From: a virus
IMG/VR virus record: IMGVR_UViG_3300008952_000015
Location: 62,001-126,000 of that record
Direction: 5' to 3' (one strand)
DNA: 64,000 nt
Position 1 is the first letter of the stretch, and each line of letters starts with the position of its first letter. Of the stretch, positions 7,463 to 59,348 are shown piece by piece. A program made the position numbers and the translations under genes. The notes under the pieces were generated by a model. It made no database searches. It saw only the letters and a program-made list of their open reading frames with translations, and was not told where the DNA came from.

Positions 7463-9775
7463 CTAGCTTTGGGGCGTTTGCTTTCTTGTCGTAGGAGTCT
7501 CTTGCTCTGCCTTCTGTCTGGCTTTCCATTCTGCGTACTGAGCCTCATTCCTTTCAAGCTCTACGGCCCTCAGGCCTTCCAACGCTTTCGATGCTTCGTC
7601 TAAGTAGGCATACTCTTTCTCTCTTGAATCTCGGAAGGCTGATGCAAACCCAGTCTGAGCCTCTGTATCAGACTCTATTGCCTGACCATACATATTGAAC
7701 CAATACTTCCAAGCCTCTTTAGCTTCATCTGTTTTCTGCTGTTCTACAATCCAGTTTCCTTCGGCTTCTGTAAGGTTTGATGGGCCTCCACCGCCATTTT
7801 CGGCGCTCACTCTTCTTCTTAACTCTAGCTCGACTATCCCTACCTGCTTTCCATCTCGTGACTTCGCCATAAAAAATGCGTTTCCAAGCTTAAATTGACC
7901 CTGTGATCCATCCCCTCTTGATACAAAGACTGTTCCGAGAGGATACTGTCCATCGGGACCTCTGGTAGCGCCTTTGGTCGCAACAAAGAATTTATTTAAA
8001 TCCATAAAGATCTTTTTGGACCCTGCTTCTTCTGGCTTTGAAGCCTCATCTGGCGTCTTAGCACGCGCTCTATCAATAGCCGAAAAAGTAAGCTTATCGG
8101 CCAAAGCTCCATCCTTATTGTCCACTCTAAAGGCTTGTATTACTTGCTTTTTAAGCCCATCTCTCTTCATAATTTCTACTACATCATCTTTAGACTGCTG
8201 CGTTAGCTCTCCCTCTGGACCTCGCTTAAAGGTATCAATCCGGCCCCATCTAGAAAGCAATTTGGTTCTCTCTGCTGCGACAGTCCCATCAGGATCATTA
8301 AGATATAGGTACTCGGTCAATAGCTCATCAGTAGGGGGAAGAGTCGCCTGTCCCTCAGACTCAGCTGGCTTTACAACCTTACCTTCAGAGGCCAAGTATT
8401 CTTTGCTCCATGCGTCCCATGCTTTTATCATGTACGAGTTGTTCCATCTGCCTTTATCGTCTAACGTGCGTCCTCCCCAATTCGGGATTTCAACCTTAGA
8501 TGCACCCTCTTTTCCATGAGTCTTAACGGCCCATTGTCGAAACTTAGTTCCGGTCGCTTCATTGTGAATCTTGCCGCCGGAATGAGCCTTCATATCAACC
8601 TTCGGCTTACTAGAGGTAGGCTTCTTTGTAGTAGCAGTATCACCTGTAGCAGTATCACCTGTAGCAGTATCACCTGCGGGGGTAGCCGTTTGCTCTGCAA
8701 AAGCCTTTGCTTCAGCTTCAGAGTTAAACCTCTTCTTCTCGCCTGTTACGGCGTTATGACCAAACCACATGTTGCTGCTTCTCTGATCATCAGGGCCTGT
8801 TCCTTCTCGCCAGTAATTGGCACTTTGTGTGGCGCTTGGCCTTCCCTTTGCACGGTCAGCAATCGCTGGTTCAGTATTGCCTGTAGCATACTTAGCTATC
8901 GGAGAAGTTCCTCTTGATGCACTCTTCCATATTCCGTCATCAGACTTGTATCCATAGTAGGTAAACATAGCTTTTGTGGCCGGATCAGACCATGAGCAAT
9001 TCTGGTCAGTGAAACATGAAGGGACGTTGTCGCAATCCCAGTCAGTAGGACATTTGCTTACATAGTATTCAACTCTATCAGGAAGTCTGTCAGTGGCGGG
9101 TTGTCGTTGTCTAAAGATATATGTTTTATTGTCAGACCAATCAAAATCGCCCTCTTCCTTTTGTCGGATTCTTTCTTGTTTCTTTGAATGTCCAGCCTTC
9201 TCTGCGTCATGTGCATTTTTCCACGCAGTAAAGAGATCAGAGTTTCGTTCCTTGATAAGCCACCAAGCAAGGGGTTGTTTGACCATGTAAGATTCTAATG
9301 AACCTTGGTGTCTTCTAAGAACAGGAACTATAGACTTGTAACTCCCAGTTTCACCAGGAGGCAGCTTCGGCAGTTCACTTCTATCCAACATGGCGTTTAA
9401 GGCCTCATCATAGGCTGCTTCTTTATCCTTAGGTGAAAAGTCTTTCCAGTTTGCTTGAGCGCCACGCAGCGTATTAAAAGCGTTCGTATAAACTTTTTTC
9501 ATCCAGTTAAAAGTATTCAGGACACCCGCTTTATCGGAGGACAGCCCGTGTTCGCTGTCGGAGTAAATATCATAATCTGCCCAAATATTCTTAACGAAAT
9601 CCTGATAGGCGGCATCACAGAGTTCGTAAAATTGCCTAATCAAAGCATTGTTTTGTGCCGTTAACCTAGCTGACTTAACGAGCCTCAATGCACTTACAGT
9701 CTCCGCTTGTTTTGTATGCCCTCGTTGTTCCAAGGCTTTCGCCAGTCTTCCTAATTCTCTTTGTTCTATATTCAT
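7463..9775 (-). CDS. large probable virion protein with N-terminal tag
   Basis: A 770-residue protein whose first 35 residues (GRLAKALEQRGHTKQAET) match the tag shared by about twelve proteins here. A central cysteine-containing block (DWDCDNVPSC) is followed by a low-complexity run with three GDTAT repeats at about 8633-8690 and a Lys/Ala-rich charged C-terminus ending QTPQS. It is rich in Trp, Tyr and Asp and has no transmembrane segment. Size, tag and neighbours suggest an internal or structural virion protein; no enzymatic motif is recognised. Confidence 0.75.
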   Translation of the reverse strand: MNIEQRELGRLAKALEQRGHTKQAETVSALRLVKSARLTAQNNALIRQFYELCDAAYQDFVKNIWADYDIYSDSEHGLSSDKAGVLNTFNWMKKVYTNAFNTLRGAQANWKDFSPKDKEAAYDEALNAMLDRSELPKLPPGETGSYKSIVPVLRRHQGSLESYMVKQPLAWWLIKERNSDLFTAWKNAHDAEKAGHSKKQERIRQKEEGDFDWSDNKTYIFRQRQPATDRLPDRVEYYVSKCPTDWDCDNVPSCFTDQNCSWSDPATKAMFTYYGYKSDDGIWKSASRGTSPIAKYATGNTEPAIADRAKGRPSATQSANYWREGTGPDDQRSSNMWFGHNAVTGEKKRFNSEAEAKAFAEQTATPAGDTATGDTATGDTATTKKPTSSKPKVDMKAHSGGKIHNEATGTKFRQWAVKTHGKEGASKVEIPNWGGRTLDDKGRWNNSYMIKAWDAWSKEYLASEGKVVKPAESEGQATLPPTDELLTEYLYLNDPDGTVAAERTKLLSRWGRIDTFKRGPEGELTQQSKDDVVEIMKRDGLKKQVIQAFRVDNKDGALADKLTFSAIDRARAKTPDEASKPEEAGSKKIFMDLNKFFVATKGATRGPDGQYPLGTVFVSRGDGSQGQFKLGNAFFMAKSRDGKQVGIVELELRRRVSAENGGGGPSNLTEAEGNWIVEQQKTDEAKEAWKYWFNMYGQAIESDTEAQTGFASAFRDSREKEYAYLDEASKALEGLRAVELERNEAQYAEWKARQKAEQETPTTRKQTPQS
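8633..8690 (-). repeat. 15-nt tandem repeat inside the 770-aa gene
   Basis: Three tandem copies of a 15-base unit (plus strand CACCTGTAGCAGTAT, third copy diverging) encode consecutive GDTAT pentapeptides, forming a flexible linker. Confidence 0.85.
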
Positions 9776-28576: not shown

Positions 28577-28741
28577 TTAATTATTTTTCCTTAAAAGACT
28601 TCCGGCTTCATTAAATACCTTTTTAATCTTTTCCCTGAAATCCTTTTGTACCCATCCGTCATTTCTGGGATTGCTTGCTTCGCTACCCCAGTCCTTAAGC
28701 GCATCTAAGACTTCTCTCAAAGAGGGTTTGCTTTTGCTCAT
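28577..28741 (-). CDS. 54-aa small protein after the sigma factor
   Basis: ATG at 28741 overlaps the sigma-factor stop as ATGA, giving a 54-residue basic helical protein (SLREVLDALKDWGS). The tight coupling supports a real gene, possibly a partner of the sigma factor. Confidence 0.65.
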   Translation of the reverse strand: MSKSKPSLREVLDALKDWGSEASNPRNDGWVQKDFREKIKKVFNEAGSLLRKNN

Positions 28742-29586
28742 TTGTACTCCTCTATCCCATAATGTACCCTTAGCCTCTTTCTAAGCCTATCTATTGCCCT
28801 CTTCTCTACTCTTCTGACCCACTCCCTAGATATATTTAACTCTTTCTCTAAGACCCTTAATGTTTTTGGCTCTTCGGTTAAGAATCTATTTTTTATAATT
28901 TTTCGCTCAAGATCGGGTAAGGTTGGCATTATCTCGTTAATAGCAAGCGTAAGGCTGTTTAACTCGTCTGCATCTTCATACTCACTGTGAGGACTGATGG
29001 GGTCTTGCAATAAATCTACTCTAAGAGTAGTTCCATCCTCACCTGCTTTAATAGGCGTATCTAGCCTAACGTCAGCGCCTTTTAAGGAGGCCATCATTTG
29101 TCGCAAAGAATCTTTTTTTACAGACAGAGAAGTTGCTATATAATTTAACTTATCTTCTCCTGTCAGCTCGCTCTCTTCAGCTTCTTTTAAGGATTTAGAT
29201 AGATTGGAAAACAGAGTTCTGTCATCTCTGGTCGTTCCCATCTTGACCACTGATTTATAATCCATAATATATCTTTTCATATTCGCCCTAACCCACCACA
29301 TAGCATAAGTTAGGAAAGTCACCTCTTGTGTTGTATCAAACATGCTTGCCGCCTTAAGCAGTCCCGCAATACCTTCTTGCATCAAGTCTTCGTAAGAAAT
29401 ATAATAATTCTTAGCCTTTAGCTTAAAGGCTTCCTTTGAAACAATCTTCATATTAGACAATACAAGTTGGTCTAAAGCAGGTTTATTAGAGTTGACCTGC
29501 CACTTCTTTACCAGATCAAGCTGCACATTTGCAGGAAGAACAGGGTTGTCTTTTATAATATCTTTTATTAAATCTATCGACGGCAT
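28738..29586 (-). CDS. RpoH-like sigma-70 family factor
   Basis: A 282-residue sigma factor from ATG at 29586 (AAAGGAG upstream). It has region 2 (YEDLMQEGIAGLLKAA, then TFLTYAMWWVRANMKRYI), a segment DRTLFSNLSKSL resembling the RpoH box, and region 4 with the helix-turn-helix (LRVLEKELNISREWVRRVEK). It should direct host RNA polymerase to phage promoters. The roughly 25 copies of TTTTCTWCATCRGTTATAT are obvious candidates, but that link is inference. Confidence 0.92.
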   Translation of the reverse strand: MPSIDLIKDIIKDNPVLPANVQLDLVKKWQVNSNKPALDQLVLSNMKIVSKEAFKLKAKNYYISYEDLMQEGIAGLLKAASMFDTTQEVTFLTYAMWWVRANMKRYIMDYKSVVKMGTTRDDRTLFSNLSKSLKEAEESELTGEDKLNYIATSLSVKKDSLRQMMASLKGADVRLDTPIKAGEDGTTLRVDLLQDPISPHSEYEDADELNSLTLAINEIMPTLPDLERKIIKNRFLTEEPKTLRVLEKELNISREWVRRVEKRAIDRLRKRLRVHYGIEEYK

Positions 29587-29596
29587 ACAGTCTCCT

Positions 29597-29794
29597 TTAC
29601 CATTCATCACGCTGTTTGTATAAACGTTTTTTTGAACGCCTTATTTTTGAATTTTTGTTCTGAATCTCTCCAACATCATACCACTCGTCCCACTCATCCT
29701 CCTTTGGGTCGTAAACAATATCCTTAGGCCCTTTCTTTTCTTCCTCTGTATTGTAATTAGAGTCACCCCTATCGCTCTTCTCCGAAGAATCCAT
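29597..29794 (-). CDS. small charged hypothetical protein
   Basis: A 65-residue, Asp/Glu/Trp-rich then basic protein (DPKEDEWDEWYDV ... RRSKKRLYK). Start uncertain: ATG at 29794, or one at 29842 inside the previous gene. No family. Confidence 0.55.
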   Translation of the reverse strand: MDSSEKSDRGDSNYNTEEEKKGPKDIVYDPKEDEWDEWYDVGEIQNKNSKIRRSKKRLYKQRDEW

Positions 29795-53653: not shown

Positions 53654-54061
53654 ATGCAGTCCATTTTTACAAGCGAGCACAGCGAGAGTCCCGCAGCAAT
53701 CCTGCGTAAGACTATGAGCGTCAGTCTCGGTGATGATGGCACCCCGATGGTGTCTTTCGCCGTGAACCGAGGCAAGGGGTCTGGTCGTCAATCAATGCCA
53801 GTTTCGGAGTTTGCCGATTATGTCGGTGCTCTGGAAGATGCCCTTCAAGCAGGTATCTCGGAGGAATCTGACGAGGCTCTTTCGGCAGCAGATATGGTGC
53901 GGCGCACCATCCGTCAGGACGAAGGTATTGTATCCTTCCGAGTCCGAGGCGGGAAGGGTGCTAAGCCAGCGAAGCTGCCAGTTGATAGCTTCTCTGAGGT
54001 TGTTGACCTTCTCTCCTCCACTGTTGACGCAGTAGAGGATGCTGGTAGCAAGTTGGCCTAA
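53654..54061 (+). CDS. paralogue A2 of duplicated GKGSG-domain protein
   Basis: A 135-residue protein. Half 1 has ILRKTMSVSLGDDGTP and VNRGKGSGRQSMP. Half 2 has MVRRTIRQDEGIVSFRVR and GKGAKPAKLP. It is shorter than A1 because the C-terminal acidic tail is absent. Higher GC than neighbours. Confidence 0.85.
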   Translation: MQSIFTSEHSESPAAILRKTMSVSLGDDGTPMVSFAVNRGKGSGRQSMPVSEFADYVGALEDALQAGISEESDEALSAADMVRRTIRQDEGIVSFRVRGGKGAKPAKLPVDSFSEVVDLLSSTVDAVEDAGSKLA

Positions 54062-56759: not shown

Positions 56760-56813
56760 ATCCCTCTACTCGAATTGTAAAACTATTGCCCGGGGCAATT
56801 GATAAAGTTTTTA

Positions 56814-56924: not shown

Positions 56925-57012
56925 GAAAACCTCCCTACTTATAAAAGTATTGACTTTCACCAATAATTAGCAGATTTTCAGCACGCACGCGGGCAAAAGG
57001 TTTACATAAGGC

Positions 57013-57043
57013 AAAAAAAAAGCACCCTGCCGAAGCAGAGTGC
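57013..57043 (-). terminator. rho-independent terminator of the large RNA
   Basis: Stem GCACCCTGC / GCAGAGTGC (one mismatch) closed by CGAA, followed on the minus strand by nine T. Confidence 0.92.
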
Positions 57044-57723
57044 CTAAAAACTCAGGACTGCATATCCTTGGTTTTTAAGTGGGAGACACTAGCATGTCTT
57101 GTTCTCCCTCCAGTGACCCCCAAAGCGGTTAAGCTCTGTCCCCTTGCGGGTTAGGCGTACACACACGGGCAACTAATACCCTTCACTGGATTGCTCCCTG
57201 TTCTCACCCTTTGGAGGTGTTGAACAGCAAACGATACTCCTGGCCCCATTCTGTGCTCGATAGAGTAGGTTGTACACCTCCCCCCTCAATCACACGCTAA
57301 GGTTCAACCCCTTGGTAGGATATTCCCCTAACCCCTTTCGGGACGGTAGGACCGTTGCCGTTCCTACCAGAGAGCCTTCTGACACCAGAAGTTAAGTTCT
57401 GTCAGCGTTAACCGACTTACCAAGAGTTTTTCTTAGTGTATGCCCTGTACCCGTTTCCACGATGAACCTACAAGTTCGCAGATACCTTCAGCAGCACTCC
57501 TATAGTGGAATATAGGCTCACGCATCCGATTACCAGATGATACTCAGGGCTACCACACCCCTTAACTCATCCCCCTTCATAGTTGGGCGGCAACGTGTAT
57601 GCACACGTCTTTCCCAAACCGGGTTCTCGCTATCTTCCGAAGAAGCTTCAGATCCGGTATCTGAAGTTTAAAGACCCGAGAGCAAGGGTCATATTCTAAA
57701 TTTTAAAAGACCGTATTTCTTAC
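57013..57723 (-). ncRNA. large ornate structured non-coding RNA, about 700 nt
   Basis: A gene-free, GC-richer block lies between its own promoter (57730-57750) and terminator (57013-57043). Minus-strand hairpins include CTTCAGAT/ATCTGAAG, CTTC-UUCG-GAAG, ACGTGTGCATACACGT, CCTATA/TATAGG, GGTAGGA/TCCTACC, CCC-GAAA-GGG, CCC-GCAA-GGG, CTAAGA/TCTTGG and CACC/GGTG within TTGCT-GTTC/GAAC-AGCAA. Size, phage location and GNRA/UUCG loops recall GOLLD or ROOL classes; the class is unconfirmed. It is not tmRNA, rRNA or RNase P by any signature I can see. Confidence 0.85.
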
Positions 57724-57729
57724 ACTAGC

Positions 57730-57750
57730 ATATAACTGATGTAGAAAATA
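57730..57750 (-). promoter_or_regulatory. repeated phage promoter, drives the large RNA
   Basis: Minus strand reads TATTTTCTACATCAGTTATATG, a consensus copy directly upstream of the structured block. Confidence 0.85.
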
Positions 57751-58084: not shown

Positions 58085-58531
58085 TTATTCCTCGAATGAA
58101 GGCTCATCAATCGGGCTGGACAATTTATTCCCAGCCGTTTCGACGGCATCCACAGTTGACCGCAGCAACTCTACGACCTCAGAGAAATCTTCCGAACCGA
58201 GCTTAGCTGGCTTTGAACCCTTGCCAGACCGGACCCTAAAAGAAATCTGCCCATCATCCTGCCGAATTGTACGTCGCACAGTCTCAGCAGCCGAAAGATT
58301 CTCGTCTTCAGCCTCAGGAATTCCATTCTCGGAATATCCTTCCAATGCCATGACATACTCTCGGTATTGGTCAACAGGCAAAACCTGCGCTCCGCTACCC
58401 TTACCACGGTTCGTGGCAAAACTTACCATCGGTGTTCCATCGTCATCAACAGAAACCGACATAGTTTGTCGAATAACCTGTGCTGGGCTTTCGCTATGGT
58501 CGCTTGCAAAAATGTTAGTCTTATCGCTCAT
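58085..58531 (-). CDS. paralogue A3 of duplicated GKGSG-domain protein
   Basis: A 148-residue protein. MSDKTNIFAS is nearly identical to the start of A1. Half 1 has VIRQTMSVSVDDDGTP and FATNRGKGSG; half 2 has TVRRTIRQDDGQISFRVR and GKGSKPAKLG. It is preceded by two tandem promoters, so expression may be strongest of the three. Confidence 0.85.
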   Translation of the reverse strand: MSDKTNIFASDHSESPAQVIRQTMSVSVDDDGTPMVSFATNRGKGSGAQVLPVDQYREYVMALEGYSENGIPEAEDENLSAAETVRRTIRQDDGQISFRVRSGKGSKPAKLGSEDFSEVVELLRSTVDAVETAGNKLSSPIDEPSFEE

Positions 58532-58682: not shown

Positions 58683-58746
58683 CTCAAATTTTACCGTAAA
58701 ACTATTGCCCGGCGCAGGGCAGAGATGGCGGGAAGAAAATGAAGTT

Positions 58747-59083: not shown

Positions 59084-59314
59084 ATGGGAATGCAAAGAAA
59101 TCGATCTGCTCGTCAAGCAGAGGCTAAAGAGAGGGATGCTGCTCGGGCAGAACTTACCGATCAGCAGCAGCTTGATCGACTGGATACAATCCTTGGAGTT
59201 GGGATTGGGGCGAAAAAGGAGCGAGCAAGGCTCGCCAAGCGAATTGTTGAGGTTGCAAAAACTAAGACCTCGGCTCCAAAAAAGAAAAAGAAGGCAACCA
59301 AAGGGAAGGAGTAA
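59084..59314 (+). CDS. small basic-tailed protein
   Basis: A 76-residue helical protein (QQLDRLDTILGVGIGAKKER) with a poly-Lys C-terminus (PKKKKKATKGKE). Its stop codon is the TAA of the boundary motif. AGGAG upstream. Confidence 0.7.
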   Translation: MGMQRNRSARQAEAKERDAARAELTDQQQLDRLDTILGVGIGAKKERARLAKRIVEVAKTKTSAPKKKKKATKGKE

Positions 59315-59348
59315 AACTATTGCCCGGTGGGGACAGAATATAAGATTT

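Follow-up and report, generated by a model that had tools for sequence, protein, structure and literature searches.

To date, giant ornate RNAs comprise very few known classes, and those of phages are not known to have a particular function. GOLLD (RF02032), a giant structured RNA that exceeds 800 nt, occurs in phages and prophages and has kissing loops and pseudoknots, and ROOL (RF03087), which is found in phages and plasmids, forms an RNA-only octamer; both are often located near tRNAs (PMC12286853). Where it has been measured, ROOL is extremely abundant (PMC5643018). OLE is an ornate bacterial RNA of about 600 nt that forms a homodimer, and the palindrome-switching loops of OLE and GOLLD provide support for the symmetric inter-chain kissing contacts seen by cryo-EM, the covarying palindromic loop of GOLLD being taken as evidence of a symmetric bridge (PMC12286853). 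The same paper cites a pull-down of ribosomes with GOLLD. The large lytic Vibrio phage ICP1 produces an abundant non-coding transcript of ~800 nt (PMC7567579). Long untranslated RNAs are also preceded by boxA in bacterial rRNA leaders and in boxA-led CRISPR arrays. This element is bound by NusB–S10 and opposes Rho-dependent termination (PMC4807359).

The DNA analysed here, hereafter referred to as the window, is a stretch of 64,000 nucleotides that corresponds to bases 62001–126000 of a 128,565-base IMG/VR virus record. A sequence-only reading had proposed that 57013–57723 encodes a large, ornate phage RNA, non-coding and equipped with a promoter and a terminator, and the comparative data agree with this proposal. 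Comparison of homologues identifies a non-coding RNA gene of ~640 nt with a boxA-like leader, a conserved, pseudoknotted fold and a terminator, and the block is present as a single copy within the 128,565-base record. The proposed extent did not hold, as the conserved RNA, from boxA to a 3′ hairpin, spans 639 nt at 57076–57714 on the minus strand. The window copy can be aligned with 23 other distinct full-length homologues and forms 167 of the 180 consensus pairs. We consider it probable that this is a giant ornate phage RNA of a new class, for which we propose rRNA-style antitermination and, with decreasing certainty, self-association and a role in translation.

A neighbouring protein (58085–58531) led to a first homologue, on a 223-kb IMG/VR contig, and exact conserved motifs were then used to find more contigs. 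The RNA is present on 29 other contigs of 15–317 kb, most of which are IMG/VR phage fragments or genomes. Of the resulting 30 carrier records, which include that of the window, 26 contain the full-length RNA and four contain a partial copy where the contig ends. Removal of two identical copies left 24 distinct full-length members that are about 50–93% identical. On the 223-kb contig the RNA block is found in the same neighbourhood and is 72% identical to that of the window over 567 nt. Bacterial MAG contigs account for two of the carriers: one matches an IMG/VR contig (both have 101,404 bases and the same RNA) and the other contains a phage terminase gene. A scan of GTDB contigs gave only two matches, both on viral-looking contigs, and none was found in 35 other genomes of the same order. 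Using five family members as queries in blastn, no homologue was detected in INPHARED phages, where only tRNAs matched, and no credible match was obtained in the huge phages LR745208 and LR756508 or in phage K (LR745208 gave one 12.9-bit fragment, E 0.09). The carriers encode large terminase (TerL) proteins of three or more dissimilar kinds. That of the window is about 25% identical to those of Bacillus and Staphylococcus phages, a second kind is T4-like, and a third shows 56% identity to the TerL of a 485-kb uncultured phage.

In the window a promoter and a terminator bracket the RNA gene, for which transcription is predicted. The promoter motif of the phage, TTCTNCATCAGTTATAT, occurs 25 times in the window compared with 0.12 occurrences expected, and a perfect copy (TTCTACATCAGTTATAT) is located at 57730–57746 on the minus strand, confirming the consensus promoter that had been recognised at the start of the block; another copy is situated 23 nt upstream of a tmRNA gene. 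Judging from the position of the promoter, the RNA probably starts near 57723, and the conserved RNA begins about 24 nt past the promoter. An intrinsic terminator at 57013–57045 on the minus strand, identified by a terminator scan and direct reading, comprises an 11-pair stem (57045–57020) with a UUCG cap, followed by a T run. This is the sole terminator-like site found in 1.6 kb, where the scan alone is not above chance. The rho-independent terminator of the sequence-only reading is present in the window, but its hairpin, which reaches ~57013, is separate from the conserved RNA and is not common to homologues; in several of these a T run comes directly after the conserved 3′ hairpin itself. 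A repeat, TGCTAGTGT, with copies at 57722–57730 and 57086–57094 (expected count 0.28), had been regarded as a feature of the RNA and was rejected. Its 5′ copy overlaps the promoter and is mostly upstream of the probable start, and it is absent as a conserved element among homologues. A sigma-70 family factor of the phage, with Pfam regions 2 and 4, is encoded at 28738–29610 (minus strand) and is a candidate for recognition of the promoter motif present in 25 copies.

The leader of the window copy contains a boxA-like element, GGTCTTTTAAA, at 57702–57712 on the minus strand. The consensus for the family is GNTCTTTNAHA, and the commonest forms are GTTCTTTGAAA and GTTCTTTAACA, from which the window copy departs. 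At the rate at which the consensus occurs in the same regions (46 times in 989 kb on both strands), the leaders, which amount to 686 bases, would be expected to contain 0.03 copies, yet it is found in 22 of the 24. On the basis of its sequence, we assign this element to the boxA of rRNA leaders. The boxA of the CRISPR array of Legionella Lens is the 11-mer GTTCTTTAAAA (PMC7862264). The element precedes the first helix (helix 1) by 19–26 nt, or by 53–55 nt in one clade that has an extra hairpin. Outside the loose boxA pattern are L067 (ATTCTTTGAAA), which is one position off, and L060 (GTTCATTGATA), which is two off. Since the element in L067 lies almost directly past the CCA end of a tRNA, this copy is probably cut from a tRNA transcript. 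The arrangement is like that of rRNA leaders and boxA-led CRISPR arrays, although the RNA downstream is rRNA or pre-crRNA in those cases and a phage RNA of an unnamed family here. It also differs from that of GOLLD, for which boxA is unmentioned in PMC12286853, and from that of ROOL, as no boxA is present in the 200+ nt upstream of one ROOL locus (pMP118). A link of either RNA to boxA or Nus factors was not reported in the literature that we found. A pairing of boxA with an invariant GGGAG, predicted by RNAalifold, was rejected; changes in boxA are uncompensated and the pairing rests on invariant columns.

The fold was assessed using a covariation alignment (A3) of the 24 distinct full-length members, on which a consensus with a large covariance share was obtained. 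It contains 180 pairs in 39 helices, and 96.4% of 4283 cells are standard pairs, compared with 39–45% when the partners are slid by 1–3 columns. Because the structure was derived from the same alignment, the percentage paired leans towards that structure, and the stronger evidence is that of double changes and tree-based nulls. Changes on both sides are seen in 119 of the 180 pairs, with 703 double-change cells versus 193 in shuffled alignments, and the covariation score is 0.537 compared with 0.240 after shuffling and 0.085–0.119 with partners slid by 1–3 columns. For the nulls, each column was simulated along a FastTree tree with its number of substitutions kept, and four-pair helices were scored. 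Seventeen helices, including two pseudoknots, scored above all of the 40 simulations on which the null E-values rest. These helix-level scores were used because the pairwise covariation test alone is weak (7 pairs at E ≤ 0.05). Covariation among homologues had been put forward as a check on the RNA, and its outcome favours an RNA.

The elements described next are all on the minus strand. The 5′ hairpin (helix 1, GACCC-UUGCUCUC-GGGUC, 57673–57690) has a loop that forms three pairs with 57626–57628, and these are paired in all 24 members, with two of the three changing on both sides. Residues 57599–57602 form a pseudoknot with 57577–57580 (97.9% paired, two double-change pairs, helix E = 0.1). 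The kissing loop GUGGUA at 57551–57556 forms 6 bp with the loop UUCCAC at 57505–57510; the contact is 95.1% paired and its double changes include GUGACA/UGUCAC and GUAGUG/UACUAC. A further pseudoknot joins UAGGUU (57465–57470), within the conserved block CUUGUAGGUUCAUCG, to AACUUA (57393–57398), and this is paired in 24 of 24 members with four double-change pairs and E = 0 of 40 nulls. Tetraloops had been noted from the sequence and were compared among homologues. The GCAA loop at 57355–57358 caps a strongly covarying stem (helix 23, seven of eight pairs with double changes) and is GCAA or GAAA in most homologues, and the GAAA tetraloop at 57336–57339, within CCCGAAAGGG, is invariant in all 24, but an internal UUCG loop is not kept. 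Helix 30 (CUGUUC...GAACAG, 57198–57227), which is followed by an invariant GGGAG, has six outer pairs that are invariant in the 24 members and six inner pairs that change on both sides. In the 3′ hairpin (57080–57109), the loop at 57093–57096 kisses 57160–57163, and pair 666–745, which is of two types, is Watson–Crick in each of the 24 members (helix E = 0 of 40 nulls). Any of these loop contacts could be intramolecular or intermolecular, which covariation cannot tell.

The hairpin at 57268–57278 (minus strand) has a palindromic loop, UGUACA, that is self-complementary in 21 of the 24 members and is a candidate homodimer kissing loop. In the most divergent clade the loop is UAGCUA in L070 and L064, which is also self-complementary, and the palindrome is imperfect in L069 and L062. 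A switch between palindromes is the criterion that was applied to the loops of OLE and GOLLD. Here the switch from UGUACA to UAGCUA represents one event in one clade, and the palindromic loop is therefore only suggestive of self-association of the phage RNA.

The RNA is located among small phage genes. A tRNA abuts or nearly abuts it immediately upstream in L065, L067, L068, L077, L083, L084 and L085, such that the GOLLD-like location near tRNAs is seen in seven regions and not in the window. In other regions tRNA genes are found within a few kb, and several carriers, including the window, have no tRNA close to the RNA. There is no obligatory protein partner, as no protein family is beside the RNA in more than 8 of the 30 regions, and then at varying distance. 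A predicted FKBP-like protein is encoded near eight RNA copies, also at varying distance. Two paralogous small proteins of no known family, at 53654–54061 (plus strand) and 58085–58531 (minus strand), flank the RNA region of the window, and relatives of these are also found near the RNA in L003.

The location between small phage genes would also fit a protein gene that has decayed or is out of frame, or a long leader that is not translated. We consider this reading already refuted and assign it almost no probability. The block 57714–57076 on the minus strand has no usable reading frame. When the homologues are compared, none of the frames stays open throughout, and the gaps break the frame, since just 84 of 557 gap runs have a length divisible by three. 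These data substantiate the earlier statement that the block has no credible reading frame, and the check for a conserved protein frame likewise favours an RNA. In addition, the compensatory changes are far beyond the nulls and a terminator is present ahead of the next gene. The GC content at 57000–57699 (0.497) is above that of the surroundings (about 0.38–0.47) and folding of the minus strand (z = −7.0) is much stronger than that of the plus strand (z = −2.8); the higher GC content had been noted before. The RNA might instead be a diverged GOLLD or ROOL, with which it shares the size class, phage hosts and a tRNA neighbourhood (PMC12286853), and the sequence-only reading had left GOLLD, ROOL and a new class as options. 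A comparison of all 4227 families of Rfam 15 with the window region gave six hits, all under the gathering score, and none of the families matched the RNAs from ten members with E values of up to 1. The best match to the GOLLD model was 8.6 bits (cut-off 150), at a different place in the related genome G001, and when the window and nine other member loci were scanned with the whole library, GOLLD was not among the matches. The ROOL model matched none of ten carrier records, the window's included, at E up to 10, but gave 130.4 bits on the known ROOL of plasmid pMP118, on which the model of the present RNA family (R1) scored at most 9.9 bits, which is noise. OLE and HEARO were likewise not among the hits in the window region or, at E up to 1, in ten member loci. 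The covariance models, with a ROOL control that worked, thus exclude GOLLD and ROOL, and of the three options the new class is the one supported. For sequence and secondary structure, a diverged form of either RNA is refuted, and it is very improbable; only a common three-dimensional fold could revive it.

Two further explanations concern function. In one, the boxA of an abundant RNA acts as a decoy that titrates NusB–S10, thereby starving host rRNA operons and redirecting transcription to the phage, and the fold merely stabilises the RNA. The boxA is indeed unpaired in the leader and conserved in position, and there is a precedent in lambda NutL RNA, high-level transcription of which is cited in PMC4807359 as titrating Nus factors and lowering rRNA expression. 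However, a decoy would have no use for a core of 600 nt in which about 40 helices and pseudoknots are conserved, and there is one boxA rather than an array, so we consider a decoy improbable. Somewhat less doubtful, although still unlikely in our view, is a catalytic RNA or a monomeric RNA–protein scaffold, in which a ribozyme or RNP core would bind a protein of the host or the phage without self-assembly. Large ribozymes and RNPs likewise display such a size, pseudoknots and invariant internal blocks, but Rfam, which includes ribozymes and introns, gave no match, the gene interrupts nothing, and no protein family is constantly beside the RNA, although a host protein may be the partner.

The model comparisons therefore indicate a giant ornate RNA outside any named family. 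It is longer than 500 nt and has many covarying helices and loop–loop contacts, as expected for giant ornate RNAs. It is similar in length to ROOL and OLE, whereas GOLLD, at >800 nt, is longer than the present RNA of about 640 nt, and OLE is bacterial and not of phage origin. Like the ICP1 RNA, for which high expression has been shown, it is a long intergenic RNA of large phages, but no profile or model match was found between the ICP1 RNA and the RNA family. No paper describing the ~640-nt RNA was found in the literature searched, which covered few subscription journals and not bioRxiv, and a description elsewhere is possible. A separate observation concerns the ICP1 gap L053:6098–7108, which is without boxA and unrelated to the RNA family, and may contain another class.

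For the new class of phage RNA, we propose the following mechanism. On the basis of known biology, boxA would recruit host NusB–S10 to the transcribing RNA polymerase, and the untranslated transcript would escape Rho, be completed and fold during its synthesis in the manner of rRNA. It would then likely be abundant and stable. With less certainty, folded copies may self-associate through the palindromic loop or the loop contacts into a particle, as do GOLLD, ROOL and OLE. The least certain step is that during infection the particle might act on or shelter parts of the translation machinery, either phage tRNAs or ribosomes, and the sole hints at such a target are the tRNA neighbourhood and the GOLLD–ribosome pull-down. 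We tentatively suggest that this could be a fourth natural class of RNA-only particle that has no sequence relationship with GOLLD, ROOL or OLE and is made by an rRNA-style phage unit (boxA antitermination, tRNA-linked transcription and co-transcriptional folding), by which large phages might manage translation. The finding of one more class, in large phages that differ from each other, suggests that phages have invented RNAs of this sort repeatedly and that these are not just a curiosity. The boxA leader offers a testable handle on production of the RNA and a possible link to host Nus factors, and with the palindromic loop and the alignment of 24 members, self-assembly becomes directly testable in vitro without phage culture.

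The window also encodes a phage tmRNA (26994–27364, minus strand) with the tag ANDNYYYNEFALAA and a phage GroEL (13228–14838, minus strand). A dispersed 17-mer, GTAAAACTATTGCCCGG, has 23 sites in the window with up to three mismatches (0.16 expected), for example at 56777–56793, 56989–57005, 58696–58712 and 59311–59327. It has no fixed distance to promoters, and one copy is directly after the terminator of the RNA. In tRNA-rich relatives a different repeated hairpin, ACCGCAGGGAGGCAYGGGTTNAYAGRTGCCTC, is found just 3′ of the RNA and before other genes (L030:1203–1241, L082:8084–8101 and 8354–8371, L084:9597–9614 and L081:8810–8827).
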